A stretch of 64,000 nt of DNA from positions 1-64,000 of the forward strand of contig ML769609.1 in NCBI GenBank assembly GCA_009733575.1, in the 5' to 3' direction. This DNA comes from Gymnopus androsaceus JB14 (Eukaryota > Basidiomycota > Agaricomycetes > Agaricales > Omphalotaceae). The notes under the pieces were generated by a model, which saw nothing but the letters and a program-made list of their open reading frames with translations, was not told the origin of the DNA and did not search any database. Below, piece by piece: positions 34,059-59,095 of this stretch; the first letter of the stretch is position 1; each line of letters begins with the position of its first letter. The position numbers were made by a program, and so were the translations under genes.

Positions 34059-34062
34059 CCTA
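34059..34062. repeat. target site duplication CCTA, left copy
   Basis: CCTA immediately precedes the LTR start TGATGAG and is repeated at 59,092-59,095 after the other LTR. Confidence 0.8.
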
Positions 34063-36486
34063 TGATGAGTTAGATTTGTGCTAGGTATGAAAACCAACCA
34101 AACAACAATCACCCCAATCAGATATAATCCAAAAGGTTTAATTTAATGCGAGGAAGGAGGTTGTCGAAGGTTCCCTCGACTACTAATTGATTCGAAGAGA
34201 AAAGCACTTGACAGTTGACACAGATAGTGCGTGATGAACAAGGTTTTATATTTGGAGGGAGGTTTTGAAAAGCCAACTAACGTACGATGACGCGCTGAAC
34301 TAATTGAGGGGAAAAGCAAACACCAAAGCACGGGTCAAGTACGCCGACTCAACAAACAACTTTGCATATCTCGGGAGCCTTTATGTCGCTGCGCAATGAT
34401 ACTCCAACTCTCAGGGATTCCTGCGAGTTACCTAAGAAGCTTATACGACCGCCGCGCAAGTCACTCGAGTAGGCGTTTTTTAACACACTCAGCAAAGAGC
34501 GGGCAAGGGGTAGAATCTGTTGGTAAAGCTAGGTAACACTCCGAGAAGCTTCCTCCCTAAAACTAAACCAAGCCAACACTTGGGTCCAAGACCTTTCCTA
34601 ATCAACAACGGGCTCGTCGAGGTGTGCATGTTAGGCTCCACCTGTGGTCCTAAGACTGATGTGACCTCTCTTCGAGATGAAAACCAGGAATGCTTGACTT
34701 AATAGCCGGGAAGTAGAATGAACAGCCTCAGTATTATCGAGGTTACAAGAAGGCAACCCGTTTCAAAGGTTGTAGAGGACGATGCAGACGCGTCTGAGCG
34801 TGTACAAATCACTACAGGTCCTACAGTGGCGGCGCTTCGGAATGGAACAGGCTATATCTCCATGACCAGACCACGGATTGACTTCAAATAAGTTGTAGAT
34901 TTGAGGGAAACAGTAATCTAATGTGATTTTTATGCTTGTATTATTACCATATATGGTAATTCTTCAAATATACACTAATTTGTGACGATTTTTGAGAGGT
35001 CCCAATTGAAAATTAGTTTTTGAAAAAAATGGACTTCACCACTGAAATCTATGTGAAAAACTACCTACGGTACAAATTTTTCCAATGTAGATTGTCTGAT
35101 TCATTGCCTCAAAATAAAGCCTGCAAAGTGGCTATTTTTGGCATTTTTCAGTCAAAATCAGCCAAAAATGCAAAAAATAGCCACTTTGCAGGCTTTATTT
35201 TGAGGCAATGAATCAGACAATCTACATTGGAAAAATTTGTAACCTAGGTAGTTTTTCACGTAGATTTCAGTGGTGAAGTCCATTTTTTTCAAAAACTAAT
35301 TTTCAATTGAGACCTCTCAAAAATTGTCACAAATTAGTGTATATTTCAAGAATTACCATATATGGTAATAATACAACTATAAAAATCACATTAGATTACT
35401 GTTTCCCTCAAGTATACAATTTATTTGAAGTCAATCCATGGTTTGGTCATGGAGATACAGCCTGTTCCATTCCGAAGCACCGCCACTGTAAGATAGAACT
35501 GTGTTTCAGGTATCAAGTCTAACTTGTCATTCCGAGATAGAATAGCTACCCTTATATACTGAGCGAGATATATGAAAATAGGAAAATGAGAGAAACTGAG
35601 TGAGATAGGATGAAACAGAGTAAGTAAAATAGAAAAAGATAAATAATGTCCATATATGCGTGTATACTATGGTTTTGCCTCGATGTTTTCCTGCCTTGTT
35701 CGTTTGTCTTCCTTGATTGGGTTGACTTTTGGGATTTTGGTCCGAATCGACTCGAGTCATTTGCCTTTTTACAAGGCTTGCCAGTTCCTTTAGCAGAACA
35801 GCCCTCAGAAGTATTTCTATGTTTTTCCTTGCCAATGGGAGACTGGTTATTATCCCTAGTTCCGTGCGGTCTCGAGTCTAGATGCCTGGTAGCATATGGA
35901 TCTCGGTAAAACGCTGAGGCTCGGATAGAAACACTCCTTGGTCCTTCCATGCTCTAGAAGTAGCTACAGCAAGTGGGTCATGTGGCCGTGTTGGACTGCC
36001 GTGGCTATCTGCCTGGGCGCTTTCCAGCAAGCGTCAACTTTGAGGGCACCCATTAGGGTACTTCCTCATCTCGGTCCACCTTGCTTCGTTTAATAAACTT
36101 GAGTGTCATTTAGACTCCTCGGTGAGCTGATTGCGGAAACGATGCCTCATTAAGACTTCGATCCCTTGGGTATATCCTTCGAGGACCTAGCCTAGTATAA
36201 TGGGCTTGTTTATCTGCCTCGGTCAGCAACTTGTTATCCAACAAGCTTGCCTTGCTACACCATACCACGCATAGGACTTTGACCAAGGCGCATTCACAAA
36301 GTTAAGTATGGTACCATTCCACGTACCGTTACTCTGCAACCTCTTGGGTAGAATAGGTCCTTGGTAGATTTTAACTATCAGCTTGGGCTCACTATAGTTC
36401 TCTTATTGACCGTGTTTTGTTACTAACAGAACCTAGGATTATTGGTTCTGCGCAGTTCTAGCCTTAGCTGAAAAATCGGCGTATCA
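34063..36486 (-). repeat. 3' LTR (left), carrying a MITE
   Basis: 2,424 bases, or 1,757 after removing the 667-base MITE plus TA duplication. It aligns end to end with 57,280-59,091. Differences from the right LTR are mostly C-to-T or G-to-A at CpG, with this copy carrying the decayed form. Confidence 0.95.
34824..35488. mobile_element. 665-bp Tc1/mariner-like foldback MITE
   Basis: Ends CAGTGGCGG...CCGCCACTG; both arms match almost perfectly along about 330 bases (axis near 35,155), giving a complete hairpin. It is flanked by TA on both sides (34,822-34,823 and 35,489-35,490). The other LTR shows the empty site GGTCCTAAGATAG at about 58,093-58,105 with a single TA, which proves insertion with TA duplication. 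No coding sequence; mobilised in trans if at all. Confidence 0.95.
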
Positions 36487-36526
36487 TCTCCCCCAAACTA
36501 AAAATCTCAACCGTCCTCGGTTGAGG
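36487..36526 (-). promoter_or_regulatory. polypurine tract plus hairpin next to the 3' LTR
   Basis: The minus strand reads GGGGGAGA directly before the 3' LTR start, the expected polypurine primer for plus-strand DNA synthesis. Just upstream is a perfect hairpin (36,506-36,525; stem CTCAACCG/CGGTTGAG, loop TCCT). A second copy of this block is at 41,949-41,984. Confidence 0.85.
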
Positions 36527-36529
36527 CAC

Positions 36530-37855
36530 AATTGAAGCCGTATCTCAGCAAGGTAACCTGTACCTGGATTGCATTGGGTAATGGACCAGCATTGACTGTT
36601 TTATGAAGTCCGAGTTGCTCTTGCCGAGGAAGCCCATTGCGGCACTAAGTTCAATCAACTGGCCTGGGTGCATTCCGTAGTTGCCGCTCGCGTTTAGGGT
36701 CTGATGCTCTTTTGGCACATCCCATCAGTCGCAGCAATCTTGAAAATCAATGCCTACTTTTGGCAAGAGATCGACTGGATACACTTGGGTGTCCCAGTTT
36801 CTTTGGCATGGTCCAGACACATGGCCTTTGGATCCTGCAATCTCCTGATTTCTCGTTCTCCGTAGAAACCATAATGATTCTTTTGCTGTGCTCTTCTTCC
36901 AGACATTCTGGTGTGATGTGATCGGGATATCCCAGTCAAGCGCTTAAATCCCTTTTGGGATGTGAGTCTGCCTTTCCTGCTTGTGCAGGGTCCAGGGGTT
37001 CTTTCCTCATATCACATCTTTCCATTCCATCACGTCGGAGTTCCGAGTTGTGCATCTGCTGCTAGCACATGGCTTCTTCTGACTTTCTATTTTCTATGCC
37101 CCAAGGTGCCTTTGTCACCATTTTTGATGGACTACCTATCACAGAAATGAATTCCATGCCCCAAGGCATCTTTGTCACCATTCTTGACAGGCTACCTATC
37201 ATATAAATAGATTTGCGTTGATCCCTGAATCTCGTTAATCACTTCGAGACAAGTGATGCACAGGTGCTGAATTTGACTTTTTCATCAACTGAACAGCGCG
37301 AGACGGTGATTCGAGTAAAAGGGTCTTCCCCATCTTTAGCACGCGTCTCCCGTATCTCGTACTTGTCATTGTGATATCACAATTTCCAGATAAACCGTTG
37401 CCGTATTTCCTTCAAGATATCACCTACTCGATCAGCGAGCGTATGATTTTCTTAAGTGAAAACACCGCATTCCCATTTTTAGGAGACGGGAATTCCTTGG
37501 TTGGTACGAGGAGTACCTGCACGGTGGAATTCCTGATGTCTCATTACATTCCTTTGAGGTCCCCGCATCAGAACTCTTCGCGATTCATCAGTCGGATGTC
37601 CGTATTCTGGTTCATGATATTCTCTAAAACCTAAATTTGCGGATGCATGTTTAGACCTCGAAAGATGCCCGTGCAGGGTTCAATCCTCATACAGGGTACA
37701 TCTTTTCCGCGAGAAGTGCTTCCTCGCGTGATATGTCTTTTCCAGACGCCACAACTGGTAAGACGCGTCACTCCCTTTTTGGAATCGCGCTGTCTTCCTG
37801 AAAAATATTTTATCTTTCTTTCTGTCGTGACTTAATCACGTAGGTTACTTTTCTC
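36530..37855. other. non-coding leader upstream of accessory gene 1
   Basis: 1.3 kb with no supported coding sequence. A 56-base unit with CCCCAAGGYRYCTTTGTCAC is tandemly duplicated at about 37,097-37,205 and is followed by ATATAAATAG at 37,201. Confidence 0.6.
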
Positions 37856-37859
37856 TGAG

Positions 37860-37865
37860 TATAAG
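37860..37865 (+). promoter_or_regulatory. TATA box of accessory gene 1
   Basis: GAGTATAAGAGGCTC, 77 bases before the ATG at 37,937. The second accessory gene has the near-identical GAATATAAGGCCTC at a similar distance. Confidence 0.6.
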
Positions 37866-37936
37866 AGGCTCGGGATTTCAAGATCGTAAGTCCCAAACTT
37901 CCCATATTCCTACCTCTCTGTAGCGTTGTTCATACG

Positions 37937-40900
37937 ATGTCCAGACGGGTTACTTCGAAACCTACCGTCGGTACGGACGATGAATTCCAACCTTCTCCCG
38001 CGCTTTCCAAGTCTGTGAACCCTGCTTCTTCTTCTACTTCGTCGAGGGCCCATCGTCGTACTGCCGCTGTGGTCCCTGTTATCGAAACTCAGCGCGCCTC
38101 GACTTCTGGTCAAACTTCTCGTTTGACTGGCCCTGGTCGGTCAGGACTCTCGTCCTCGACTCTTCCTGCTGGTCGTGGTGGGGCTCGTGGTGCTGCTGGG
38201 CCGTCCCGAGGTTCTTCCTCGGCAACCTCAGTTGCCAGGCCTCCCTCCAGCCTTCGCCAGATCGTCGAGAATAGCAAGATCGTTTCGCTACCTCTGACTG
38301 GTAAGCTTTCCCTGACATTTAACTGACTTTTTCCAATCTCGGCTGACCATCACCTCTGTTTTCTCGTAAGAAGACACTCGGCTCGTCTCGTTCTGGTTTC
38401 TACGGACCGTATTCTTGCAGGGCATCTTTGCCTGTGCAGAACACCAGTCTCAGCGAGAGGAGCTGGAGATCTCGGTGTCGGATTGGGTCGCATTCTTCGA
38501 CAAGCATTCACCCAGAATGGTAAGTCTTTTTTTGTTTAACCTTTCGTCGTGGGTTTTTGCTTATTTCTTCATCTCTCCTAGGTTGCCTATAAAGCCAAGT
38601 ATGGCAAATACATGGCCACCACTTGGTCCGCGGCATTCTTGCTCGGCGTCCAGCGGCTCTGTACGCAGATGTTGGGCCAGTATGCTCGGAAGGACCTCCA
38701 ACGGTATAAGACGGAGTGGTTCATCGAGGAGCCCATTCTGACTTACACCTTTATTGGTGGCGATGAGGTAAGCCCCCTTTTTGTCAACTTTGTTAGGTCT
38801 ACCTCGATTTCTGACTACTTTGTTTCCGTCTCGATATAGATTCCTGGACTGTCGAGCCCTGTCGTGACGCCTTCCGAGCTTATCTCGGGGGGTCTCATCA
38901 ATTATCACAAGTTCGAGGTTGACTTCGAGCTGAGCGTCTCTGGGCTTGCCCAGGACGAGCTCTTTCCCGAGGAGGCCATTTTCATCAGCGACCTCGTCGA
39001 GGTAAGTTTTTCCCTCTTTTCGTCTGTGAAGTTCAATTTTTCTGACTTCGTTGTTCTTTTCTCTTCCTCGGTTCTCAGGATGTGGGTCTTTCGGTGAGTA
39101 CTCCTATCCTTCCCCTTTCTTTTCTCTTTACTAATTCATTCTTTTTACAGCAAGTCGGAATTCACGGTTTCTCGCCGAGCCCTCGTCTCTTCGACCCAAG
39201 CGAGGACGCTCTCGTTGACAACATGTTCATTGACTTCGAGGCCGTAGAGTCTGAGAACGAGGATGACGATGAACAGGAGGAGGAGGATGACGATGGACAG
39301 GAGCCCGAGGAGGAGGATGCTGACCACGACATTGATGTCGAGGAAGATCCTTCTCCCATCGACAACGAGGTTGAGTTTGTGGGCGAGGCTGTCGAGCAGC
39401 CAGTCCGCATTCGCTCTTCCTTGGTAAGTTCCCTTTACACATCCTCGCTTCTTTTTACTGATTCATTCCCTTTGTTAGCTGGAATATCCGACCTCGCCGG
39501 TTCCAAAGCCTGTTTCCTCGAGCGCATATACATCCAAGTCGAAGAAGGGCCAGTCCAGTCATGCCAAGGACTCGGGCTTTCCTCGGCTTGAGGGTGGCCG
39601 TCAGAATACGTCCTTGTTTGGTTATGACTCAGTCCTGGCGCGGGGTGGGGGCAAGTCTCGGGCTGCACGAACTTCGAACGCCGCGGGAACGCCTTATCCT
39701 GAGACAAAAGGTGTTCGGATGATCACCGTAAGTCTTCCTTTTTCCGCTTATTCCCTTGCTAACTTTTCGTTTTCAGGAGCGTTTCGCTGCTCCTGGTGAC
39801 TTCAACGATAACGAGCGCGTTCGACTTCACGCTTCGCTGGACAGCTTGGTGCACAGCACCATTCCTCTGCAGCCTGTAAGTTTCCCATCATTGTACATCG
39901 TTTTCCGAGCCGCGCTAACATTTTTCCCTCAACTGCAGTTTCCCTCGGTGTCATGCACCAACTGCATTCGAATTGGAGTGCAGTGCTCAATGCCACCTGA
40001 GTCCACCAGCAGTGCTCGCCATGAGTGCCATCGTTGCCTCCTGAGCAAGACTCCTTGCTCGTTCAGCTACCCTGTCGAGCGGGCTGACGAGGAGCGGAGG
40101 CGGCTGTTTATGCATGCCGCCAGAAGCAACGGGGGTACGTTTTTCTTCTTTCTGATCTTTTCCTCTAGTTTGGCTAACCTTCTTTTACTTTTCTAGCGGT
40201 CGCCATGTTCTCTTCGACACTTGCCGAGGAGAACCTTGGCCTTCTTCGCACCGAGGTCTTGCTCCGGTCTTTCTTGACCGAGTTCACGATTCAGGCCAGT
40301 AACGTTGCTCGCCGTCAGGCTCAGCTTCGTAACTCGGCTTCTGATCCTCGCTCATTGCTGAAGGCTCTCATCGAGGATGGCTTTGTCGCCGAGACGGACA
40401 CGGAGCGTTTGTCCATGCTTGCCTTCCTTCTTGGTTGGGACAAGCGTTTCACCCTCGAGGATCTCGAGTTTGAGGGACTCTCGCAGATTCCTCTTCCTGA
40501 GGTCATCGCGCCGCCGCCTACCCAGTCCCAGGTAGGTCATCTTCATGCTTTGATTCCTTCGGACAGGGTCCCACCCATCCCTGGTCTTGTTCGTCGACCT
40601 CAGTACAAGGGTAAAGGCAAGGCCAAGGCCGTGGAGGCAGCTTCCGAGGAAGGATCTGCTCCAGAGGAGGCTTCCACTGTCGTTGCCGAGCCTGTCTCGT
40701 CTTCTGGATCCAGTGAGGAGTCCGAGGAGGAGGCCGTTGTTCACGCTCGTAAGTCTTTTCTTCATACTTGTCATCAGCTTTTTACTGATTTCTTCAGTTT
40801 TAGATTCTCCCTCGAAGCGCCGTTCTCCATCTCAGTCTCCCAGCGCCGAGGAAGATGACGAACCAGTGGCCAAGCGTCGCAAGGCAACCAAGTCCCCTGC

Positions 40901-41110
40901 CGCGGCTCCTGCAGCTGTTCTCTCTCCTCGGGCCTTCTTTAGGCAGAACGCTGCTGCTGGTCCTTCCGCGAGACCGATACAGCGCGCTCCAGGTGCTCAT
41001 CGTGGTAGTGGGTCGAAGCAAGGGTCGAGGAAGAGGAAGGTAAGAATTCTTTCTTCCTTAGTCTTCATCGTTTTTACTGATCCTTGTTCCAGCGTCCGTT
41101 GGCGCCGTAA
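37937..41110 (+). CDS. accessory gene 1: Zn2Cys6-like nuclear protein, antisense to gag-pol
   Basis: Exons 37937-38300, 38371-38519, 38582-38767, 38840-39001, 39079-39093, 39151-39423, 39479-39727, 39777-39875, 39939-40134, 40197-40748, 40804-41039 and 41093-41110 total 2,499 bases: 832 codons plus stop, in phase throughout, all introns GT..AG. The N-terminus is Ser/Arg-rich and low complexity. A well-folded-looking region follows (FWFLRTVFLQGIFACAEHQ, WSAAFLLGVQRLCTQML, about residues 122-290), then an acidic Glu/Asp run (about 310-370). Six cysteines at about residues 505, 508, 515, 529, 532 and 539 are spaced C-x2-C-x6-C-x13-C-x2-C-x6-C, close to fungal Zn2Cys6 DNA-binding clusters. The C-terminal part is Ser/Glu-rich with basic KRRSPS and AKRRKATK patches like nuclear localisation signals. 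No overall homologue recognised. It lies tail-to-head before gene 2. Confidence 0.88.
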
Positions 41111-41296
41111 GTCGAGGTATCGTGGCTGAGCTTTTGCCGCCTCGCTGGCTTTCATTTTTTATTTATTTACATCTTTGTTTTTGCATGCTTCATAGTCCAT
41201 TGGACTTTAAAACACATCGATTCATAGCTCTTTTCGTACTTTATGCCACATTTTGTATAAGTAGCATAGTAGAATTTTGAGCTTTTGTATATAGCA

Positions 41297-41302
41297 AATA
41301 AA
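41297..41302 (+). terminator. poly(A) signal of accessory gene 1
   Basis: AATAAA about 190 bases after the stop codon at 41,110, in an AT-rich stretch. Confidence 0.5.
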
Positions 41303-41948
41303 AGGAGTTTTAACTCCAGTTTCGTTCTTCATTTTGTGTGAAAACATAAGCAGAACTTTTAAGTTGTCTCGAGCAAATTTATAGCTCATGAAGACTCTTT
41401 CTAAGCATTTTGTTAAGTTCTTCAGCGCGGCAAACTACCGAACTTGAAGCCAGTCACCGCGGAGACTTGCTCTCGGGTGTTTTGACTCGATGTATGCAGT
41501 TTAAGTTGTGCCAATCTCATTTCGAGGTTGAAACACTTCCAACGCTGCTTATCAGACCCTTGTCATGGTGAAACTGTTCACTTGGACTCGGCCAACTAAG
41601 GATTTAGTTCCTCGATGGTTTTACCGCAACCAGTGCCGTTTCTAGCCACAGCGGACTTCTTCCGTTCTAAGTCGTCAAGCGCATCATATGGTTTTGATGG
41701 TGTGATTACACCACCTTGTTATCAAGCAAGAGTTTGATTGGTCAAAGCGTCGGATTCAAACTGTTTTATTGCAAACTAGTTTTCATGCCGAGGGCCAGGA
41801 ATAACATTAACAAGTTCTGGCCAGATAAGACATTGATACACGTTCGTGCCCATTCCTTAGCTGTAGCCTTGAATTTTGCTTCTTGCTTCACCGGTCTTGC
41901 CGCGATCAACTCTTGTTTGGACTGCAAATAATCTATCTCGCCAATCCT
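41303..41948. other. intergenic spacer between accessory genes
   Basis: No supported coding sequence in about 650 bases; only short frames. It ends at the second polypurine/hairpin block. Confidence 0.6.
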
Positions 41949-41984
41949 CTCCCCCAAACTAAAAATCTCAACTGTCCCAGTTGA
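41949..41984 (-). promoter_or_regulatory. internal second polypurine tract plus hairpin
   Basis: CTCCCCCAAACTAAAAATCT is identical to the block beside the 3' LTR, so the minus strand again reads GGGGGAG after a TTTTTAGTTT spacer. The following hairpin has stem TCAACTG/CAGTTGA (41,968-41,984). Compared with the first copy, one stem pair changed from C-G to T-A on both sides, a compensatory change. It lies 335 bases before the accessory gene 2 start. Confidence 0.8.
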
Positions 41985-42231
41985 AGGAGGGTAGCCAAGT
42001 ATAGCGCGGCGAAATATTTCATGCAGAACGGACCCTTTTTAGAGCTTCCGGTTTCACGTCTCGCCGCGATGATATTTCTATCGCGGCAAAGTCTGTCCGC
42101 GATGCTCTGAGTCCCATTGTTCTGATGTCTGCAGCGAAAGCGAATTCTTCTCTCATCTGGCAGTATTTTGGCGGCAAATATTTTGTCCAACCTGGTGCCG
42201 TCTCAGATCCCAAACTCGGCTTCGTCTCGAA

Positions 42232-42237
42232 TATAAG
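42232..42237 (+). promoter_or_regulatory. TATA box of accessory gene 2
   Basis: GAATATAAGGCCTC, 88 bases before the ATG at 42,320, followed by a pyrimidine-rich stretch (CTTTCAACTCTTCTTTC) of the kind found near fungal transcription starts. Confidence 0.6.
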
Positions 42238-42319
42238 GCCTCAGTATCTCGAGGATAAATTTTCGAGCCTCCGCTTACATCTTTCAACTCTTCTTTCAAA
42301 CAAGCACATCCATTCTAAA

Positions 42320-45280
42320 ATGTCCTCCGAGCCTGCTCGTCCTTTCATCACGCTCAAGGACTACCCAGACCACAAGATCCAGCTCCAGAAGCAGGCCGAT
42401 GCTATCGAGGTACTTGCCAAGGCTAAGTGCGCTCTCAGCATCCGTCACCCTACTTGCGAGCAAGCTCTTGTCTACTTGGTACGGGACTTCCCAATTTTCC
42501 ACAGAGTCTAGTGTGTGTGCTAAAATATCAAACACCCTTCAGCACTATCCTGCCAGTCAAGAAGTTACTTCTCAGACTGATTACCAGGAATTGTACAAGA
42601 CGCTGCTTGACTTGGTAGCCCCGTCCATCAGCAGCAAAAGGTCAACTTGTTCGAGAAGTGCGCGAAGTACTACCGCACTATCACGGCTTCGAATGAGACC
42701 CCTGACCATGCTGGCAAGCAGAGAAAAGGGGTGAGTTTATTTACTCGTCCTCGTATCTCGTTGACCAGGTCTCAGTTTTCCAAAAAGGATGGTTCCTCTC
42801 GGCGATCTATCCGAGAGGATGAAGAGGTGGTTGAAGTCCCGGCTCCTCCAAAAGTTGCCAGCACAAGTGCAACACCCGTATGTGATTATCACATTCTTCT
42901 TCTTCAAAGCTGATTTCTTTGCTAGACCGGGCCTCGTGCCCATGTCGCGACAGCTCCTAATTCGCGTCACTTGCGTGTAAGTCAATTCCTCTATTTCTTC
43001 ATTTCTCTTTTTAATTCGTTTCGTAGGAATCTCCTTCGCCTTCTTCATCTCGCCCCAATGTATGCACACATGTATTTCCTCATCAGCTCGATTTGACTGA
43101 AGGGTTTTATTATGTTTCATTAGGGTACAGCTGGAGTCGAGGCTCGGAAGGGCAAACGTACTCGTCTTAACGACGATGCGTCCAACTTTCGTAGGCCCGA
43201 GACATCAGGTAAGAACATTTTTCATTCTTTTATCGAGGCAATTGTCCAGACCGGGAATGCTCCTGCGATCGAGGACGTTGCTCCTCGGACGATTGGTCCT
43301 TGGGATCCTATTCCTTGGGATTGTGAAATTCCCGAGACCATAGGATACTTCGCTGGTGGGGGAGCCGAGGTCCCATACGAAGTTATTGCTTACGAGCAAC
43401 TTTTCGTGTTTTACGGCTACCGAGGCTCCTTTACCCAGTTTCTTGCCTTTACCGGAAATTTTTCCTTCACCGTCCAGTGGCTTTCGAAGTGGTACATCTC
43501 CTCCCTCGATCGTGCCTCGCACAATCGCTTCTTGGATCGAGAACTTCCCTTCTCTCCGATTCCTGCCATCGACTTATCTTATCCTTCGGATTGGATTCCT
43601 TCACATGAATTCTGTCCCTTCTGTGACGAAGCATCTGTGCAGTGTCTTTGGTACAGGACTAGCAACTTTCACGAAGTCACGGACCAATTTCTTTCTTACG
43701 GTGACCTTTGCGATGCCGGGTATACAGACTTTCCATTTCCACAACGCCTTCAACGAATTCAGGAACTTCGTGCTAGTCTCGAGAATAATTTTCCTCAGTC
43801 TGACCGTTGTAACTGTCGTTCTGGCGAGTCGACGGAGTCTTTCCTCGACTACTCTTGGGTTCGCAATGAGCTGGTCGGTTATCCAAGCCAACCTACTGCT
43901 CAAACCCTAGAGTTGGTCCCCGCGACTTATTCCTTCTCGGGAGTCCCTTGGCACGTTCACGGCGAGGTGTACAAGTACACCTCGGAATCCCTTGAACAAG
44001 TCCGTGCCCGCTACGAGAACAATCCTTTGGTCGAACTCGCTTGTGGCTTTCCTAAGGTAACTCTACCTTTTCCCATTTTTGTTCGAGGCTCACCAGTACC
44101 CTTTCTTTCGTAGGTCCCTGTTGTTCCTCGATACTCGCGGGTCCTGGACTGGAGTGGGAGGCCATTATTGCCAGACCCAGGCATTCCACAGGAGGAGCGC
44201 GTTCTTCGAACTTGGGATACTCATACCGCGTATGATTATTTCTGGGATCGTATCTTCCAAGGCGACTTTCCATCTCGGGACCAACTAGTATTCAGTCTTT
44301 CCCGGAATTCTAGTCCCGAACAGCTTGTCAATTTTCCGCCCCAGGAAGCTTTTGCTAACCCCGCGCAATTTTGTCCCTGCCGTCGTGACTGTCCTGAATC
44401 GCGATACGTTCCCATCGCGGTTCGATATTCTCCTTTAGAAAATGCTAGTTTCCGCGAAGCTGCTCTGGTCCGAGGTACTCATGATTTCCATGATGTACAT
44501 GAAGACTGGCGTCGAGGTATTTTTCCTCGAGACAGTCGACCAGTTCCTCCTACGGTTTCTATCAAAGTCCCCGCGGATTCACCAGTCCCAAACAGTCCTT
44601 CGTCGGTTACTCATCAGTTCTATCCAACAATCCATCGTCCAGATCACGTCGAGGTCTTTTATGACCCTGCGACTTGGAAGTACTACAATTCTCGTAGTTC
44701 CTATCCCTTCGCGAGCCCTGCCTTGCTCGACGAGGTCCGTCCTTTAGTCAAACCTGTTCTTCATCATCCCGAGCTTCGTCCCGTTCAGCCATCCAACTTT
44801 CAGCCCGACGAGTTTTCCCAGCGAATGGCCGAGGCCTTGTCTGCTAACGAAGAATCGTGGCCAAATTTTCAGGAATGGAGGTTTGCTCGTGAAGCGTATA
44901 TCGACTGGTCTGACCCTCAAAAGGTTGTGGATATTTTTGATCCTAGGCGATTTCCTTGCTTATATCGACACGGCAGACTATTTTTCGGGGGGGAAGCTGC
45001 CTTTGCACTTCTGCAAACACGTCCTCCCTTCAAAGTTCATCGTCCCCCACTGCTCATCGAGAAGTTGACTTCTCTCTTGGGTTCACAGTCCCGTCTGCCA
45101 CTGTCGTCAGTAGGACCCATGTACCAGCAGCTTTCTCCGGAAGACGAGGTTCTGCTCGCCGAGATCGCATCACACTTCAATTCCACGGTCGTCCGCGGTC
45201 AGCAATACGACCTTCGTCGCGATCATGATGAAAGCGGCTACGACTCCGACCTTTACAACTGGTCTTGCGAGTCGCATTAA
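42320..45280 (+). CDS. accessory gene 2: 879-residue protein, antisense to gag-pol
   Basis: Exons 42320-42478, 42543-42730, 42769-42877, 42926-42976, 43027-43059, 43124-44056 and 44114-45280 total 2,640 bases (879 codons plus stop), in phase and without internal stops. The first 180 residues are charged and Ser/Pro-rich with a basic ARKGKRTR patch. The rest looks like one or two compact domains rich in Trp, Tyr and Phe (WDPIPWDCEIPETIGYF, VFYGYRGSFTQFLAFTG, WLSKWYISSLDRASHNRFLD), with Cys pairs that could bind metal (FCPFCDEASVQC; FCPCRRDCPES). No catalytic motif or known family recognised. It ends tail-to-tail with the integrase end, about 740 bases away. The ATG was chosen because it follows the TATA box and an AAAATG context. 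Confidence 0.85.
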
Positions 45281-45370
45281 GGCGCATTCCCGTTCTGCTT
45301 TTCTTTTAACTTTGTTCGTTTTAACTTCATCTCGAATCCGTTTACTGACTGAAACTTTCTCGTTTTACAG

Positions 45371-45687
45371 CCGATTTGGCCGAGGTTCAGGACGAACGCT
45401 TAAACCAAGCTCTCAATTCCCTTGAGGGCTATCCCGAGCTCGATCCTTCTGTCGAGGACATTCAATACGGTTTGCTTAATCGCTACCGCCTCGACTTCGT
45501 CTATTATCGCGGCATGGCCAAGCATTTCCGCGATGAAGCCGAACATTCTCTCCGGCTCTTCACAGGTCAACACGAATCTATGATGAAGAAGGGTTACCCC
45601 CTTCCTCAGATTGATTTGGATAGACTGCCCGAGTTCATCAAGAGCTCGGTTCAGCCGGCTGACGCAATGGAAACAGATGGAAATTAG
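45371..45687 (+). CDS. probable last exon of accessory gene 2
   Basis: Open frame without its own start, directly after a good acceptor (CTCGTTTTACAG) and a pyrimidine-rich tract. It encodes LAEVQDERLNQALNSLEGYP through VYYRGMAKHFRDEAEHSL to METDGN and stop. The preceding exon ends with a stop at 45,278-45,280. A donor at 45,276 (ATTAAG here; GTTAAG with one base change) would join the two in phase. So this copy may have lost, or use a non-standard, splice donor. Confidence 0.5.
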
Positions 45688-45699
45688 GGAATTCGTCAG

Positions 45700-46019
45700 C
45701 GAGGAGTCAATGAAGTCTTTCTTTGACGAGTCGCTGATGAATTTAGGGTTTCTTTTCGTCCCCAAGTCTCGATTGGATCGTTTACGCAGAACATGGTATA
45801 TTCTACGGTTATTTGGACTTTCGTTTTTAGGACGCCGCGTTGTTTTCGATGGTTTTGTCGTGTCTCGGGTCTCATTAGCCTTTAACACTTCTTTTCCCCA
45901 TCGTTTACGGGTTTTTGTATGTCTCTACTTTATATAGATCATGTAACGTGTTTCAACCGAGGAGTCGATGAAGTCTTTCTTCGCCAACTCTGTTGAAACG
46001 CCCGTATCCCCTGATCTGC
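45700..46019. other. spacer between convergent genes
   Basis: Contains two copies of GAGTC(A/G)ATGAAGTCTTTCTT (about 45,703 and 45,962). Otherwise no supported gene. Confidence 0.5.
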
Positions 46020-47589
46020 TTATGTAGATCTTTTCGAATGTGAGCGGGTCTTTCGAGACTCATTCGCGGTTAACTCGGTCTGATTTTTAGTATAAGACCT
46101 TGTCTTCCTCGGAGCATCGTGACTTGCTTCCTCATCCTCATCTTCTGACTGGTCAGAATCTCGTTCTACAAAATCTTCACTTAAGTCATTGATGTCAAGA
46201 TCATACTCATCGTCCACGGGTTCCTTTAAGTTAGGAATAGCGTCGAATGCCAAATCTCTACCCACTTCCTCGCTTTCCATCATGTGGTCCAGTTGCCTCG
46301 GTGTGAGGTCAATAAGGTCATGAATGTTCCGCGGGAGTTCAATAGGTTCGTATCGAGCATGATGTGGTAGCACCCTGAAGGCGCCTACTTTCTCTTTTAG
46401 GACTGCTCCATTCATCTCGGCGAGGATATAAGATCCTCCGCGCGTTCGACGAATCACCACGAGTGGTCCTTTATACCTCGGCTGCAGTTTACGATTAAGA
46501 GACTTCTCAATCATAGTGTTCCTTACTTGAACTAGCTGGCCAGGTTTAAAATCGTACTCTTTTATGGTATGACCATATTCCTTCTCGAAACGCCTGAGTT
46601 CTCGGCGTTTGTTTTCATCCACACGAGAGATCATATCACGGATATGAACTCGATGTTTGGCTAGAGCTCTAGCTCGGTAACCCACGAGTTCCTCATCCGT
46701 CAAGATTCTTTCTGGTATTTTCACTAACCAGGTGGATTCAACTATATCGAGAGGTAGCAGAGGTTCCGCGCCTGTTACCATAAAATAAGGTGAACAGCCA
46801 AAACCTCTACGTGTCGTTGCTCTATCAGCAAACAATACTGGTTTTAAGAACCAGAACCACTTGGATAAGTCGTTCGCGGTAGCTTTGACCAAAGATTGCC
46901 TAATGTCAAAGTGGGCGCGTTCGATCTTTCCATTTCCCTGCGAATTATATGGAGAGATGCGCACACCCCGGATTCCATATTTCTTTTCAAGCCATTCCAA
47001 CATGTTCTTCATCTGAGGAGCGTTATCAGTAACGACCTCCTCGGGACACCCCCATCGACAAATAATGTCGTCGAAAAACCATTCTCCCAAAGTTCGGGCA
47101 TTCTCTACTTTCAGAGCTCTTGCCTCGGACCAAGAAGAAAGCGCGCACCGACCGTGTACAATGTATTTGCACCCGTTACTCGGTGTCGACAAGTGGAAAG
47201 TGTCTACATGAATCTTTTGAAACAATGAAGGAGTGTGGGTTAAAGTGGGTGGTATTTTTATCCACTCCAACCTGCGATGTTGGCAAGCTAAGCAAGTTTT
47301 AACAAACCAGTTAACATCTCCATCGAGATCTGGCCACCAGAAACGCTTCCTGATCAATTCTTTAGTTGCGAACACGCCCTTGTGTCCAAGGTGATCGTGA
47401 GCACTATGCATCATGAACATTCGGCGGGTTTTAGGTACAAACAACAAGTGTTGTCCTTCCACTTCTGGATTACGTCGGTACAAGCGTTCTTCATCATCAA
47501 GGAAGAACTTAATAGCTTTCTTTTCAAGTCGGGAGTAATCCCTTATTGAGCTGCTTGGTAGAGTGATTTGGCCTTTATTTTTCAGCCAT
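46020..47589 (-). CDS. retrotransposon integrase region of pol
   Basis: A 487-codon uninterrupted frame (47,483-46,020), extending upstream to about 47,589 through KNKGQITLPSSSIRDYSRL. It shows the HHCC zinc module (HDHLGHKG ... CLACQH), the catalytic core D (HVDTFHL), D (VVTDNAPQM) and E (GNGKIERAHF), then a GPLVVIRRTRGGSYIL-type C-terminal strand domain and an acidic tail with a repeated basic RKTRS motif. All DDE residues are present. A one-base frame change at about 47,590 (KEHG/WLKNKG) separates it from the upstream pol piece (47,590-47,740, NLNGITAEQFAVAIK). Confidence 0.93.
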
Positions 47590-48249
47590 GTTCTTTAGCG
47601 AAGTCTTTACAGTGATCTTCTACATAAGGATGCGCTTCGTTCCACTCTTTCGTGTCCTCGGCTACAACCCATTTCGAGTGATCGACCTTCTCCGCGGGTT
47701 TTATCGCGACAGCGAATTGCTCTGCCGTGATTCCGTTCAAGTTCCAGCACTAGATGTTGCCAGGCTTTTGCAAAAGATTGCAATAATTGTTGTAGCCCAT
47801 TTTGCAAAAGATCCCGATAACTTATAAGACTTATTGGGAATGGCCTCGGGGTGCTGCTGCCGGATTTTCGGCATTGCGGCAGTGTAGTTCTTTTGCCAAA
47901 TATTTGTTGAATGCTTTTCGCACCAATGAAACCATCGATATTGATTCACAAATATTTCTTGAATATGTTTGCTTTATAATATTGCAATAAAAGCCATTAT
48001 TGTTTTGCCAAATATTTGTTAAATCCATTTTGTACTCAAATATTAAAATTAAATTGATTACTTAGGCGCCTATGGTCCTTCCGAGGTTCATTTACCAAAT
48101 ATTTGGTAATAGCCAAAAGAAATCAATTGTCTGGGCACCTACAATCCTTTGTAGATTGATTTGGCAAATATTTGGTATTAAATCAATGTGAAAAAAAACA
48201 GCAGTTAGGTGCTTGTGGGTGGTTGTGGGCGCTTATTTGTGGAAAAACA

Positions 48250-48645
48250 GGTTGATCATGGGTCAATCTCATAAATGCTCAAAAGAAAATATAATCATGG
48301 TCATAAATGCAAAAAAAATGAAAAATAAAAAAATCAGAGCAGTAGTGCACTGACATGATCAATATGCGCTATTACGAAAAAAAAAAATGATCATGTCATG
48401 AATCAAAAATGCTCAAAATAATGAAAATATAATCATGTCATAAATGCACAAAAAAAACTGAAAAATCATAAAAATATCAGAGCAGTAGTGCACTGCACAT
48501 GATCATACTATGGTATGCGCTTATTTACAAATAATCATGATCCAAAAAAAATAATGAAAATATGATCATGTCCATAAATGCAAAAAATAATCAAAATACT
48601 CAGATGGCAGGGTTAGGTGCACTGGCACATGATTCATATTGTTTG
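48250..48645. repeat. subterminal repeats, left half of the long-TIR element
   Basis: About three copies, period about 120-130 bases, of TCATAAATGCAAAAAA...GCAGTAGTGCACTGACATGATC. Inverted relatives form the right-hand array at 50,570-51,330. Confidence 0.75.
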
Positions 48646-49589
48646 GCACTTATAGGTGCTTATTTTTCGAAACAGACAAAAGTTGCTCATTGGGTCCCTA
48701 CATCCCAAAAAAAATGCTGAAAAAGAATGATGGTTTTGCTGTAAAGCAGGGCCTCAGGGGAGCAATAAACAGGTACATCATCCAGATTCTCGCAAGGTAT
48801 ACCTCTTGAATAAGAATGACAAATTTCATTTTTTGAAAAGTTCAATTTTTCAAAGACTCTGGATTGGGCAAGTAAAATGCAATTTCTGAGGACATTTTCA
48901 ACCCAAATAAGGAAATTCTGGTATGAGTCAGGTAACAATGAAGGGCGCTACCAATTTAGTATTTCTACTGACCGTGGGAATTTTCTTGGTTCATTACAAT
49001 TTATTGAACTTGGCTATGAGTATTCCAGGTACTGCACTTCTATGTACAGAGGTGACGGTCACGGTCATGGAGGCCTCATTGTGTCACCTATTTACCGTGA
49101 TGTCACAGTCAAATTTAGCCCTCATTGCCTAACTTTCAACCATGACACACCTAAAATCAATCAAATAAATAAAATAAAATAAAATACATCACATATGTCA
49201 TGGCTACAACTGGGTCTGTCACCTAAGTTTGGACCGTGAGTACACGTGATCATTGTGTCTTTATCCAGCATACCAACACATTGATATGCACCCCACTTTT
49301 GGGTGCTTATTAAGTACATCATTGGGTTTCTTAATCCCCAAAAAGCCATCAAAATTGCATAAAGTTTCAGGAAATGAGTTTACACACACAACGGTATTCA
49401 GTTTTAGTAAGAATGAATATGATGTCATATCACAAAAATTTCGAGTTTTTTTTGGTTGATGATGTCATTATTGGTTTGTATAGGTGCCTAAGCACTGAAG
49501 GTTCTATATGGGATTCTGTGAATCAACTGTCACCTGGTGGTTGGGTCAAGGAGAAACTGTAAACCATTACCCAGAGAAACTCATACCAA

Positions 49590-50015
49590 GTTAACTCCAA
49601 GTTCACTACTATAGTAGTACTGATAACTCGGAGTTACTGGTACTAGCTATTAGTACTAGTAATTAATACTAGTAGTAACTCTGAGTATACTACTACCACT
49701 ATACTAGCACTAATAACTCGGAGTTACCACTGTACTAGTACTAATAACTCGGAATTACCGGTACTAGCTATTAGTACTAGTAATTAATACTAATGGTAAC
49801 TCTGAGTTACAACAATACTAGTACTAATAACTCGGAGTTACTGGTACTAGCTATTAGTACTAGTAATTAATACTATTAGTAACTCAGAGCTACCACTACT
49901 AGTACTAGTATTGTAGTAACTTGGAGTTACTAGCATACTAGTACTAATAACTTGGAGTTACTGTAGGACAAGTAACTAGTAGTAGTAACTCAGAGCTACT
50001 ACTGCTAGTTATCTA
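49590..50015. repeat. ACTAGTACTAATAACTCGGAGTTAC satellite
   Basis: Six or more imperfect copies of a unit with TACTAGTACTAATAACTCGG, its complement (CCGAGTTATTAGTACTAGTA) interleaved, so the array is largely self-complementary. It sits in the centre of the long-TIR element. Confidence 0.85.
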
Positions 50016-50569
50016 TTTAACATTAGTACTATAAATGCTAGGGTGAAGGTGGGCTTATGCTGGTGCATGGTAGTTACTCATCCAGTGTCAAAGTAATCAG
50101 CACAAATGATATAATATGATTTAGCAGCCAAGGCTGTGCATACATAGTGCTGTAGCATAAACATGTTAATAACATGGAAAGTAGAATATCTAATATAGTT
50201 CAATTGTCTGTATAATCAGGGTTATGAGATTTAAATTTCTTATGTAGGATCAGGCACAGAATTCTGAAAACATGAACTTGGCATTCATTTCATTAACTAA
50301 TACTAATAGCTAAGTAGATATATCTATAAATTAGATACTAGTGTACCTAAACCTCCTAATATTCTTAGTATCTCAACATTGTTTAAGGATTCATGGGGCC
50401 CAATAATCTTTTCTTCTGAAAATAATTGCCCATAAGCACCCAGCAATATATGCAGTGGATGACAAAATTGATATGACCTCTGTGACCTACTGAATGGGCT
50501 ACTGAATAGCCCACTGAATTAGGGGGTGACATCAATTTTGTTGTCTGCACTATGTATAAATCAATTACT

Positions 50570-51335
50570 AGTTCATGCTAACCCCACCCTTGAATATTTT
50601 TAGGATTTTGCATGAATTCTTCATGAATTTTTATGGATTTATGGAATGTAATGATTGACTGTTTTTCAGAAAATAAATGCCTATAAGTGCCCAACAATAT
50701 GAATCATGTGCTAGTGTACCTAGCCCCACCCCTGAATATTTTCAGCATTTTTTTGTGATTTATGGGACCCAATGATCATTTTTTATGGAAAATAAGCACC
50801 CATAAGTGCCCAACAATATGGATCATGTGCCAGTGCACCTAACCATGCCCCCTGAGTATTTATTATTATTTTGCAGTATTTTTTCGGCATTTATGGGACC
50901 CCATGATCAACATATTTTTATTATTTTTGAGTGTTTTTTGGGGATTTATGGGACCCCATGATCAACCTTTTTTTTTTTTGTAGAATAAGCACCCATAAGC
51001 ACCCAACAATAAGAATCATGTGCCAGTGCACCTTACCCTGCCCCCTGAAAATTTTTTGTTATTTCTCAGTATTTTTTTGGCATTTATGGGACCCCATGAT
51101 CAACATATTTTCATTATTTTGAGTATTTTTTGGGGATTTATGGGACCCCATGATCAACTTTTTTTTTTTCGTAAAATAAGCGCCCAATAGTATGGATCAT
51201 GTGCCAGTGCACCTAACCCTGCCTCCTGAATATTTTTATTATTTTTCAGTTTTTTTTTGGCATTTATGAGGCCCATGATTAATATATTTTCATTATTTTG
51301 AGCATTTTATGGAGGTTGACCCCATGATCAACCCT
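50570..51335. repeat. subterminal tandem repeats, right half of the long-TIR element
   Basis: Five units starting near 50,578, 50,710, 50,838, 51,030 and 51,211, each with CCTAACCCTGCCCCCTGAAT, GGCATTTATGGGACCCCATG and ATAAGCACCCATAAG. They mirror the left array. Confidence 0.8.
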
Positions 51336-51818
51336 GTTTTTTCCACAAAATAAGCGCCCACAACCACCCACAAGCACCTAACTGCTGTTTTTTTTCACAT
51401 TGATTTAATACCAAATATTTGCCAAATCAATCTACAAAGGATTGTAGGTGCCCAGACAATTGATTTCTTTTGGCTATTACCAAATATTTGGTAAATGAAC
51501 CTCGGAAGGACCATAGGCGCCTAAGTAATCAATTTAATTTTAATATTTGAGTACAAAATGGATTTAACAAATATTTGGCAAAACAATAATGGCTTTTATT
51601 GCAATATTATAAAGCAAACATATTCAAGAAATATTTTGTGAATCAATATCGCTGATTTCATTGGTGCGAAAAGCATTTAACAAATATTTGGCAAAAGAAC
51701 TACACTGCCGCAATGCCGAAAATCCGGCAGCAGCACCCCGAGGCCATTCCCAATAAGTCTTATAAGTTATCGGGATCTTTTGCAAAATGGGCTACGACAC
51801 TTATCGTGATTTTTTGCA

Positions 51819-53749
51819 TTAAGCTGGCAGAATCAGCTGGTTCCAGATCCGTTCTCTATCCAAATGGCATTGCTTCTCTTTGTCCAGTGCGAGTTGGATA
51901 TCATCTTCTAAGTTGTCACTAGACCCAGCTCTATCAAGATCGTATTCCGTGTCGAGGAGGAAGCCTCCGCGGGTATCAATTTCGTCTTTAAACTCCTCGA
52001 TGTCCAGGGGCCATTCAGTTTCACCCTTACACATGAAGAAGGGCACAGGTTCACCATCATCCTCGTCAGCGAAATTGTCCTCATTAGGAGGTTGTCTTTT
52101 CAACATTTTTCCTCCATAGGCTCGGTGAGATAAACCATTGGCAAGATCATTTTCTTTCCCTTTAACATGGACTACATTGAAATGGTACTTGCATATTTCC
52201 TCGATCCAGCGATTAATGGTAGCATTGGGTCCACAGCTCAGGTTGTCTAGCATACCCTTGATGTATTTAGCATCTGTACAAACTGTTAACCACCTGCACC
52301 CATAGAGTTGATAGTAGCTCGCTTGTAAAGCAATCCTTAATCCGTATAGTTCATGTTTAGACTGCGAAAAACGAGCTTCTCTTTCATTGAGAGTGCTTGA
52401 CCCAAAGTAACAGAAGTAGACTTTTGTCTCATCATTAGGGTCAACTTGATAGATGTACCATCCGACTGCCATGTACGACGTGTCCACTACGAGATAAACA
52501 TCCCAATCATAGTTAATAGGTCTTAAACACAGAGCATTTTTGATACCTTCTTTTATGAGGTCCATTGCCATATCGTGTTCAATTCCCCATTCCCATGGAT
52601 TGTTTCCAGTTAGTCGCGTCAAAGGTGCTGCTAGTTTAGCAAAATTCTTTATGAACATGCGTAGCTGACTTGCAGTTCCAAGGAACGCCCTAACATCAGA
52701 TTTGCTTTTGCATCTCGGCCACATTAGAATAGTCTCGACCTGACTCTCCTTGGGAAATCTTCCCTCGTAAGAGCATCTGTGATCTAACTAACAGTTGTTT
52801 CTTTACAGCACAAAAATGCTTTTGGTCCAGAAAAGGTTCCACCAACGTATTTGAACCTTTGGATAATCCTATTTACGTTCAAAGCATGTTCCCAAACAAA
52901 CCGTCAAATCTTTGGATTCTCTGGTATAGTCTCATAGCCACCTCCTGGTAATTCATACCTAGTAGCCGGACCTCGAATAGGAACGTCATCGAGATATGGT
53001 CTGGTAACTCCAGTCACAATCTTGTCTCGGTATATATAAGTCATGTTGTCATGGAAGATGGGTACAGAAATTGTCCAACCCATTGGTAGTTTTACCAATC
53101 GGTACGTTCCGAAAGGTGTCTGGAACGCAGTGTAGTCTCATGACAACATGTGCAAATCCCGTTCATCATAACCAACAAACATGTCTAAGGTACCACCACA
53201 TGCTCTTCCTGCAAAAGGTCTTGCGATGTCCGTGGTGGCTGGGGGCACTCCTGAAAATTGGATTGTGATTTTGTTAAGATGTTCGAGACTGTGTACAATT
53301 CGTAAACTTTTCCCGTCCTTATTAGTGACACAAAACCACTTGGTCTGATAAGACGATGTCATAGGCTCATATAACCCCGCATCAATCTTGTCTTTGAGAA
53401 TACAACACACTTCTTCGAAAATCCCTGGTGGAATCAGAATGTTTTTCTTGAACTAGGGTTCATGAGGGATTACAGGCATTTTAACCGGTGGAAAGTACTC
53501 GTGTTTTAACGATCCTCCTTCCTCGGCACACCATGCAAAACCTGACTCCTGATCCATCATTATATTGTGGAACAAGGCTAACTCCTCTTCACAGAGGAAT
53601 CCCTTGTTATGATTTTTGTCAAAAATTTCCTTCCTTTCCTGCGTGAACCTTCCAGTGGGAACAAATGATCGAGGATGAGTAGGAAGCTCCGGTAAATCCT
53701 TAAGTGGATCTCCTTTGATATCCCTTTGCACTCTATATTCCTCGGGCAA
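51819..53749 (-). pseudogene. retrotransposon reverse transcriptase and RNase H, broken
   Basis: Minus-strand pol. The RT part shows LRIVHSLEHLNKITIQFSG, FQTPFGTYRLVKLPMGWT and the catalytic PYLDDVPIRGP (a YxDD motif, about 52,990), then RFVWEH. RNase H (52,724-51,819) has its D (LVVDTSYMAVGWYIYQ), E (RFSQSKHELYGL) and D (VCTDAKYIKGML) in place and ends KGKENDLANGLSHR plus an acidic tail. Stops at about 53,458, 53,138 and 52,904 and a frame break near 52,790 destroy the frame. The order and motif wording are typical of basidiomycete Ty3-type elements. The 3' end is cut by the long-TIR insertion at about 51,820. Confidence 0.92.
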
Positions 53750-53772
53750 TTCAGTTTTAACTGGTCAGACTT

Positions 53773-54730: not shown

Positions 54731-54774
54731 TGGGTTGAAAAAATACGATCAGCAACCTCCTCGACCAAACCAGG

Positions 54775-57183
54775 TCAGTAATTAGGGCTCTGCAGCTTAT
54801 ATGCTGGGCCGTCATTTTTCTTTAAGGTTTGATTCGGTGGTTTACTGGGATTCGTACTTTGTCGCGGGGCAGGGAGCACACCTTTAGGTAAGTCCCTCGG
54901 AATAGGAGTAACTGTAAGTGGTTTTATACTGTCGAAGGGTCTAGTAGCTGGTTGCGCAGCCTTTTCAACTTGTTCCTTTGATGGTACCGCGGTGCCAGGT
55001 GTTGAAACCTCTGCCTCGCTTTCATCTTCAGAGTCACTTGGAAGAAGTCTCGAAGCGTACTTGCTTCGGTGCCACTTTGTCTTTTCTTTTCCCGTTGCCT
55101 CACTTGATTTTTCCTTAGCATCAAGATTGAAAGGCTTGTATACCTCTCGATTAAAATTTTTGGGTTTTGGAATAACAACTTCCATTTTACGAGATGTGGG
55201 TTTTATTTGCGTAGTCGTGCCCTCCGGTTTCTTACCCATCCTACTAGGTTTTTCCCGTTCGGTGGAAACCTTCATCGAGCTTAGTAGTTTTTGACCAAGC
55301 GTCAGCTGCATCTTTCCCAATCATTTTATCATTCTCTTCACTCTCGGATTTGTTCAGGAAGAAATTAAACAGGTGCTTACTGAAGGCGTCCAGGTTAACG
55401 CCTTGAGAACCTTCAGCAGGCTCCTGATAAAATACTTCCTTGGGAAGCGGATTGTCTGGTTCTTCAAAGAAGTAACTAGACTGGTCTTCGACCATCCACC
55501 CTCTCTGTCTGGCGATTTGAAGGACTTTGTCCTTCCGCGACATTTCGTCGTCGTCCCGAGGCATATATCCTCCATCCTTGAGCATCATCTGATTCGTGCC
55601 ATCTTTCATGACTAGAATTCCCTTGGACTTTAGATCTTCAATGCTCGGACACGTCCTGACTCCATGCCCCTTTTCTCGACAGAAGTAACACATCATGTCT
55701 CCAATAGCCGTAGACTTAGCCGGAGTAAACGATGATGGTTTGCTAGTTGGCCGCGGTAAGTAAGAGCTAGACGAGGATTGCTGTGGGTAGGAGGGCGCCC
55801 GTGATGAACTGGGTGCTCCTCTAGCTATCGACTCGACGCTATTTTTTAACGCTGCCAGAGATTGCTCGATCGCGGAGAGCTTTTGATCATGGTGTTTTAT
55901 TTCCACGTCGTGACGATCCTTCGAAAGAGAGACTTTCCTCCCCCATTCATCGTCAGGTTCTCCTTTGACCTTTGCATTCCCTGTGACTACGTCAGGGTTG
56001 TACACCGTGGCCGCGACAGCAGGTTCGCTTGTCGAGATCAACGACGTAGAATAACCCTTCCACAATCTTGCTTGTTTCTCTGGCAGATTCAATGATTTCC
56101 TTCAAAGTGAAAGGATCATCTTCTCTTCGATCAACCTTATTCTTCGGATCTACTTCAGCTTTGTCGAGAATAGTATTCACGAAAGAACCATCGAACGCCG
56201 TGAGGAACCATCGTACTGCCTCGTTATTCGAGAGTACAGGCTGAGGTCCACTCATGAGTTTATTTGCTTCGATACTGAAAGCCCTTATGAACTTCTGGAT
56301 CTTCTGCAACTCGTTCCTATATATGGTTCCAACACTCTTTACTAACTTCTCGATTCTCTGTTTCGATCCTATTTCTTCACTCGCAGTCTCAGGGTAGCCT
56401 TTCTTCAACATTTGTTGGAAGTCTTCCCATGTAGTCGTTGCACTAGTCACGATCGGATTGTCCTTCCATTCGAGCTGTGTCGCGTATGACATCCAACTCA
56501 CAGCAAGGAACTTTTTAGCAGTATCCTCCGTGATTTTATTCAACGCAAAGAGTGCTTCACAAGCGGCTAGCCATGCCAACAAATTCTCGGGTTTATCACC
56601 GTTGAACTCGGGCGGGGCCTTTTTATGAATACTTGGGAGCTTGTCATTTTGAAGTTCAAGCACGGCTCCCGGCGTGAGCTGAACTTTAATGTTACTGATT
56701 GTCGTAGGTATAGACATTCTTGTAGCTTGAGGGGTTTGAGTTTGTCTTTGTGGGACTTGCTCGGTGGGTCTTGTCTCGATGATAGGTGTCTGAAACTCTT
56801 CGTCGTCTGACGATTCGTCTGATAATCTATTCCGAGATGAATTCCCTTTTGGTGAACGCGGGGCTCGACTCGTAGATGATTCTGCTCGGCTAGCAAGAAC
56901 TTCCTCTATAGTCACTAAGGATGGGCTGTTACGCTCTTCCTCGGGTACAGGTGAAGGTCTAGTTGACGGCAAAGTTCTAGTTGAACGAGGAGCTCGCGGT
57001 GCTACTCTCGCTGTAGTTCTGTCCTCGGGCGTCTGCGGATAGGGTGGCTGTGGGTACAAAGGTACCTTTGGCTTCCTTTTCAGTAGCGCGTCGGGATTTT
57101 CTATCGGCGGTAGTGGCTGTTCGCTGGAGTTGCGTGTACTTCTACCAGCTGGTGGATTATGCGATGAGCCAGAAATTTTGACT
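54775..57183 (-). pseudogene. retrotransposon gag, frameshifted
   Basis: Starts upstream of MYPQPPYPQTPED (57,059). A low-complexity Pro/Thr/Arg region is followed by a capsid-like domain (PPEFNGDKPENLLAWLAACE, TAKKFLAVSWMSYATQLEW, FIRAFSIEANKLM). After a one-base frame break at about 56,060 comes a zinc knuckle, CYFCREKGHGVRTC (C-x2-C-x4-H-x4-C, about 55,690-55,650). A second frame break near 55,260 leads to a basic Lys/Pro-rich tail. The domain order is the usual gag of Ty3-type elements. Confidence 0.88.
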
Positions 57184-57259
57184 GCAACGGCGAATCCTTT
57201 TTAGCGCACTGACTGAAAACAGTTACTTGTGCTTAATAATTTTTCAATCAAAAGTAGCT

Positions 57260-59091: not shown

Positions 59092-59095
59092 CCTA
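59092..59095. repeat. target site duplication CCTA, right copy
   Basis: Follows the LTR end GTATCA; matches 34,059-34,062. Confidence 0.8.

Follow-up and report, generated by a model that had tools for sequence, protein, structure and literature searches.

A 64,000-nucleotide window of Gymnopus androsaceus JB14 DNA (contig ML769609.1, positions 1 to 64,000; contig C227 of the 934 contigs in the 83.3-Mb assembly G000) contains on its minus strand a Ty3-type retrotransposon (Metaviridae) bounded by long terminal repeats (LTRs). Two plus-strand genes, here called gene 1 and gene 2, lie inside it. We consider it probable, at roughly 80%, that this element represents a family that has its own pair of accessory genes, oriented antisense to gag-pol after integrase and spliced only from opposite-strand transcripts, and that gene 1 behaves as a swappable cassette. 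An earlier reading of the window, made from the letters alone (the sequence-only reading), had placed two plus-strand genes antisense to gag-pol, between integrase and the polypurine tract of the 3' LTR, within a single LTR pair with matching CCTA target-site duplications. This layout was confirmed (Table 1). The LTRs have TG..CA ends and a CCTA duplication on each side, and RNase H lies upstream of integrase, which is the pol order of Ty3 elements.

Gene 1 and gene 2 belong to the element family. The G. androsaceus genome was the only one searched; places are matches merged by hand, and match counts are lower bounds. Gene 2 was found directly downstream of integrase on the opposite strand, in tail-to-tail arrangement, at 13 of the 18 places where integrase matched with at least 88% identity (C227, C245, C851, C161, C695, C45, C847, C248, C881, C79, C312, C268 and C411). 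The five remaining places consist of four partial integrase matches (C678, C93, C661 and C173) and one match split by a long stretch (C470). Gene 1 gave 44 matches at 21 places, and gene 2 lies within about 13 kb on the same strand at 13 of them, including C97, where only the 5' part of gene 2 is present. Three of the eight gene-1 places without gene 2 (C700, C396 and C268 near 92 kb) are close to the end of a contig. Beyond gene 1, the element LTR was reached in four of six fetched flanks (C245, C312, C161 and C716); the stretch fetched for C97 ended before the LTR region. Matches to the LTR were far commoner (502 candidates, 40 of which were scored). The prediction that homologues would sit antisense between integrase and LTR in other copies was therefore borne out within G. 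androsaceus. They are not ordinary single-copy host genes, being multi-copy and mostly beside integrase, gene 2 or the LTR. That a single nested insertion or a join in the assembly brought unrelated host genes within one LTR pair is in keeping with the other inserts present in the window copy. However, such an event is already refuted by the repeated order and orientation on different contigs and by the LTRs beyond gene 1, and we assign it almost no probability. At C411, gene 2 was matched on the plus strand (23447-24494) and, about 13 kb away, on the minus strand (36786-37556), suggesting two elements close to each other.

Gene 1 has 12 exons totalling 2,499 nt (832 codons) and 11 GT..AG introns of 49-77 nt, as the sequence-only reading had it. 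For another copy, the deposited model P0001 (BT96DRAFT_1007730, 787 amino acids (aa), partial) is spliced identically over its 787 residues, with a few residue differences. In seven diverged copies, codon positions 1, 2 and 3 had 178, 120 and 301 distinct substitutions, respectively, and the third position was the most substituted in every one of the 12 exons, exons 1 and 2 being represented by two copies only. A homology-free splice search left one intron in and its model overran the stop codon; the 12-exon model is preferred because the deposited model and the codon-position counts agree with it. Compared stretches of the gene-1 copies contained 0 to 3 stops, with stops in several copies.

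Gene 2 is a conserved, putative accessory gene. The coding nature of its large exons (43124-44056 and 44114-45277) is clear; its last exon (45371-45686) is open, shows a weak third-position excess (28, 25 and 37 at positions 1, 2 and 3) and falls within the deposited model P0015. Gene 2 had been described as a spliced gene of 7 exons and 879 codons. The splice search returned no model with these exon and codon numbers, and the frame is broken in the window copy. There the length of the second exon is one base off that in all four copies with data (C245, C312, C97 and C248), and the gene-2 frame is therefore shifted. Where the last donor lies is uncertain: a site at about 45198 is implied by P0015, and the stretch beyond is open to a stop at 45278-45280. 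The gene-2 models of the homology-free search skipped pieces or joined them doubtfully and were not used. Pieces of the element are contained in three deposited G. androsaceus host models; P0015 fuses gene 1 (allele 2, described below) with gene 2, while P0007 and P0013 fuse gene-1 pieces with other N-terminal sequence.

The ratio of nonsynonymous to synonymous substitution rates (dN/dS) for gene 1 was 0.16-0.32 where dS exceeded 0.1 (seven of nine copies); only 3 and 1 changes were present in the remaining two. For gene 2 the ratio was 0.27-0.39 at the same dS limit (six of 16 copies) and ranged from 0 to 0.64 in less diverged copies, and for integrase it was 0.04-0.33 (seven places). When all six frames were compared, dN/dS was lowest in the true frame in seven of seven copies of each gene. 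By the measure of codon substitution, this shows that both predicted proteins have been under selection during spread of the element, and the purifying selection on both genes is close to the integrase level. A role for antisense transcripts has been proposed for plant elements (PMC7264820), and in principle the transcripts rather than the proteins could be what matters here, for example through double-stranded RNA formed with the genomic RNA that tunes silencing. The coding signature in all gene-1 exons and in the large exons of gene 2 makes this explanation very unlikely, although an antisense-transcript effect could exist in addition to the proteins.

Comparison of element copies revealed that most of the gene-1 coding DNA in C245, C312 and C716 cannot be aligned to that of the window, yet both sides match. 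These copies carry a second allele of gene 1. The window protein and the C312 gene-1 model are 40% identical in amino acids over 726 aligned codons, with a dS of about 2.5, which is near saturation, and a dN of 0.62; the C312 model has one extra intron and, next to an in-frame stop, artefact introns. The two allele-2 copies C312 and C245 are separated by a dS of 0.89 and a dN of 0.19 over 677 codons, 138 codons are gapped or absent, and C245 has four stops. A third allele, considered on the basis of 41-45% matches, was dropped, as C716 and C268 near 92 kb fit allele 2 better. In C245 and C716, identity to the window is lost within about 10 codons of the beginning of gene 1 and is regained at its stop codon, and in C312 the flanks adjoining gene 1 have also diverged.

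The remainder of the element gave a very different picture. Not counting extra bases in the copies, the window differs from C312 by 1 substitution in 2,250 nt (41561-43810) and from C245 by 1 difference in 1,793 nt (42011-43803), and over 523 integrase codons the differences are 2 and 0, respectively. On the LTR side of gene 1, differences from C245 and C312 amount to about 2-7% in most 150-base bins and reach 15%, with higher values close to gene 1 in C312. Divergence across the element is greatest in gene 1 and declines unevenly to both sides. From these alignments we conclude that gene-1 alleles of ancient divergence sit in nearly one young backbone and that the gene-1 end has been swapped. 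Elements that separated recently carry long-parted forms of gene 1, which an exchange of the element's 3' part accounts for, and the uneven fall of divergence is what would be expected from repeated exchange around a cassette too diverged for internal recombination. Retroelements ordinarily exchange sequence by template switching between co-packaged RNAs, and switching in the conserved flanks is the most likely way in which the gene-1 alleles would have been exchanged. Fast, diversifying point mutation in place, with no exchange, would also leave gene 1 as the most diverged part of the element. We regard it as extremely improbable, since the backbones of the window, C245 and C312 are almost identical at a gene-1 dS of about 2.5, dN is below dS, and C245, C312 and C716 have the other allele in common.

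A second copy of the polypurine tract lies between gene 1 and gene 2 and repeats the tract beside the 3' LTR with 92% identity. It was matched in 9 of 11 loci; L008 had no match and L065 had only the LTR-side tract. The 40-base bin over the internal tract contained 1 distinct change in 289 cells, and neighbouring bins were low too. The last difference between the window and C245 in this flank, 41967, falls inside the internal tract, a single case that may be due to chance. The internal tract may be a relic of the addition of a gene-1 block to a one-gene ancestor, or it may serve as a second plus-strand primer. A more speculative idea, which we think unlikely, is that gene 1 is an idiomorph-like specificity gene. 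Balancing selection would then keep old alleles, for example for escaping host silencing or for recognising the element's own RNA or DNA, and whole coding cassettes would be shuffled by template switching in conserved flanks, with the internal tract marking where the modules join.

The persistence of introns was compared across copies and alleles. GT..AG was kept in 80 of the 82 gene-1 introns examined in nine copies, and in each of these copies the introns were more diverged than the exons. Introns 1-9 of the 11 have the same position and phase in both alleles; the last two agree in phase, within a poor surrounding alignment. Each gene would probably be transcribed from its own promoter on the strand opposite gag-pol, and TATAAG occurs 77 and 88 bases upstream of the gene-1 and gene-2 starts, respectively, being kept in all four copies with data for each. 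Splicing would occur only in the antisense transcript; the genomic RNA would hold the introns reversed, without splice signals, and the conservation of the introns suggests that they pass reverse transcription unchanged. On this evidence, intron-bearing genes have apparently persisted through retrotransposition, and it is well supported that antisense placement would let introns survive the process. The sequence-only reading had put this idea forward, and it is strengthened by the retained splice sites and by nine introns common to an allele of 40% identity.

Six cysteines with the spacing CX2CX6CX13CX2CX6C are present in both gene-1 alleles (in exon 9 of the window copy), a spacing that we take to match the fungal Zn(2)-Cys(6) binuclear cluster motif. 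Together with basic C-terminal stretches, they suggest that gene 1 may encode a nuclear, zinc-cluster-like regulator of element expression or host silencing, a tentative assignment to which we would give somewhat less than even odds. Such a nuclear role has also been proposed for the products of antisense genes in plant elements (PMC7264820, PMC11963269). When gene 1 was searched by sequence against proteins of solved structure, the single match was at chance level (E 0.4), and the Pfam scan gave no TRP28 or SMC family match.

Several observations weigh against the interpretation developed here. The function proposed for gene 1 is weakly based: Pfam Zn_clus (PF00172) scored 10.8 bits against allele 1 (cut-off 21) and was not listed for allele 2 in the Pfam scan, and because the score is below the cut-off we do not claim membership of this family. 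Structure models of gene 1 (from an alignment of 8; mean predicted local distance difference test score (pLDDT) 30.1) and of the gene-2 large exon alone (mean pLDDT 34.0) were uninformative. The promoters, transcripts and splicing of both genes are predicted. Many element copies, including that of the window, are decayed. Five gene-1 places on longer contigs have no gene 2 (C716, C148, C229, C181 near 128 kb and C296), and at C268 near 92 kb the fetched flank contained gene 1 but no other element DNA. Protein searches, which need shared five-residue words, detected no homologue of either gene outside G. androsaceus; the first of them scored only the 7,998 candidates with the most shared words. 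The C268 place is what might be expected if two chromosomal genes had been picked up once as passengers of no benefit to the element, and LTR elements are known to capture genes (PMC7264820). Such capture is nevertheless quite unlikely, given purifying selection near the integrase level in both genes and two ancient gene-1 alleles inside the element. In addition, no lone host version of either gene was found in the G. androsaceus genome or in the protein searches, within the same limit of sensitivity.

Two further loci, L067 (C59:235500-244700) and L068 (C566:13800-23000), represent a related Ty3 family with plus-strand open reading frames (ORFs) between integrase and LTR, one of them with a cysteine-rich stretch. 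Their integrase tail is about 61% identical to that of the window family over 86-90 aa, and C59 retains the LTR end and polypurine tract. By eye these ORFs had looked like diverged versions of the two accessory genes; when 375 ORFs were searched with profiles, no match was significant (best E 0.52), and homology is not claimed. Between C59 and C566, two ORFs avoid second-position changes (17, 5, 19 and 11, 3, 7) and other stretches do not (14, 17, 11 and 6, 14, 11), which is only suggestive of coding. Four of the C59/C566 ORFs had no match in Pfam.

The window copy of the element is decayed. Its two LTRs share 96.7% identity in an alignment of 1,753 sites, with 49 transitions and 9 transversions, and the ORF list contains none of at least 200 aa in 52787-55244 or for the reverse transcriptase part of pol. 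The insert of about 4 kb in pol has long terminal inverted repeats, with arms of 200 and 298 nt that are 93% and 99% complementary, and many internal repeats. The hairpin, with 330-nt arms that are 95% complementary, is confined to the left LTR. Apart from the element, positions 1-574 of the window hold a tandem array of 73- and 53-base units.

Table 1. Positions of the retrotransposon and its parts in the window
Feature	Position	Strand	Basis
Target-site duplication CCTA, left	34059..34062		sequence and LTR alignment
3' LTR, broken by hairpin insert 34819-35493	34063..36486	-	LTR alignment
Polypurine tract and adjoining bases, beside 3' LTR	36487..36524	-	sequence, alignment
Gene 1, 12 exons, 832 aa	37937..41110	+	splice model, deposited model, codon-position counts
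Gene 1, exons 1-6	37937-38300, 38371-38519, 38582-38767, 38840-39001, 39079-39093, 39151-39423	+	
Gene 1, exons 7-12	39479-39727, 39777-39875, 39939-40134, 40197-40748, 40804-41039, 41093-41110	+	
Internal copy of the polypurine tract, separating gene 1 from gene 2	41948..41984	-	92% identity to 36487-36524
Gene 2, spliced, with uncertain 5' exons and last donor; frame shifted in window copy	42320..45689	+	coding signal
Integrase end of pol (H2C2 zinc-binding domain, rve, SH3-like)	46020..47594	-	ORF and Pfam
Nested inverted-repeat element within pol	47753..51834		inverted-repeat arms
RNase H part of pol	51819..52787	-	ORF and Pfam
gag; DUF7041 and Ty3_capsid matches weak, both under cut-off	55992..57200	-	ORF and Pfam
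5' LTR	57280..59091	-	LTR alignment
Target-site duplication CCTA, right	59092..59095		sequence and LTR alignment

Single antisense genes after pol are already known. In fungi, the LTR element Boty of Botrytis and Sclerotinia carries the antisense gene brtn between pol and the 3' LTR (PMC7264820, PMC8365987, PMC4227169). Boty resembles the G. androsaceus element in the position and orientation of its gene, but one antisense gene is described for it rather than two, and its pol has a chromodomain, whereas none was matched in the window element by the Pfam scan. Among plant Ty3 elements, antisense ORFs after pol occur in Retand (TRP28), Grande, RIRE2 and PvRetro13, and a survey counted 104 antisense ORFs over 63 clusters, with two or more per element possible; DNA-binding or nuclear roles have been suggested for the products (PMC11963269, PMC7264820). 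These ORFs are like the G. androsaceus genes in position and orientation. Because Retand can hold more than one antisense ORF (PMC11963269), an antisense pair alone is not unprecedented. The plant genes are counted as open reading frames, and the word "intron" is absent from the texts PMC11963269 and PMC7264820, whereas the genes described here are spliced. Bdelloid rotifers have LTR elements with additional ORFs, and Terminons, and their accessory genes are exchanged among retroelements, as in the G. androsaceus element; by contrast, their ORF3 types are of enzymatic origin, and antisense placement with introns is not described for them in the portion of the source consulted (PMC5408684).

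The sequence-only reading knew of no fungal element with a pair of heavily spliced antisense genes. Boty supplies a fungal precedent for a single gene; on heavy splicing of such genes or on allele swapping in a fungal retroelement, no title or abstract was found in literature searched mostly without subscription papers. A conserved, heavily spliced, cassette-swapping antisense pair thus appears to be new. The near-identical backbones allow accessory-gene exchange to be read directly, which makes the roles of the genes and the persistence of two gene-1 forms testable. Introns are expected to be lost through an RNA intermediate, and this family would be a natural way round that loss, by the same trick as in globin lentiviral vectors, in which the introns of a gene are kept by orienting it antisense to the genomic RNA (PMC7897704). 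Those vectors are engineered, whereas the G. androsaceus arrangement is natural and has apparently been kept over evolutionary time, long enough for alleles to reach 40% protein identity with their introns in place.

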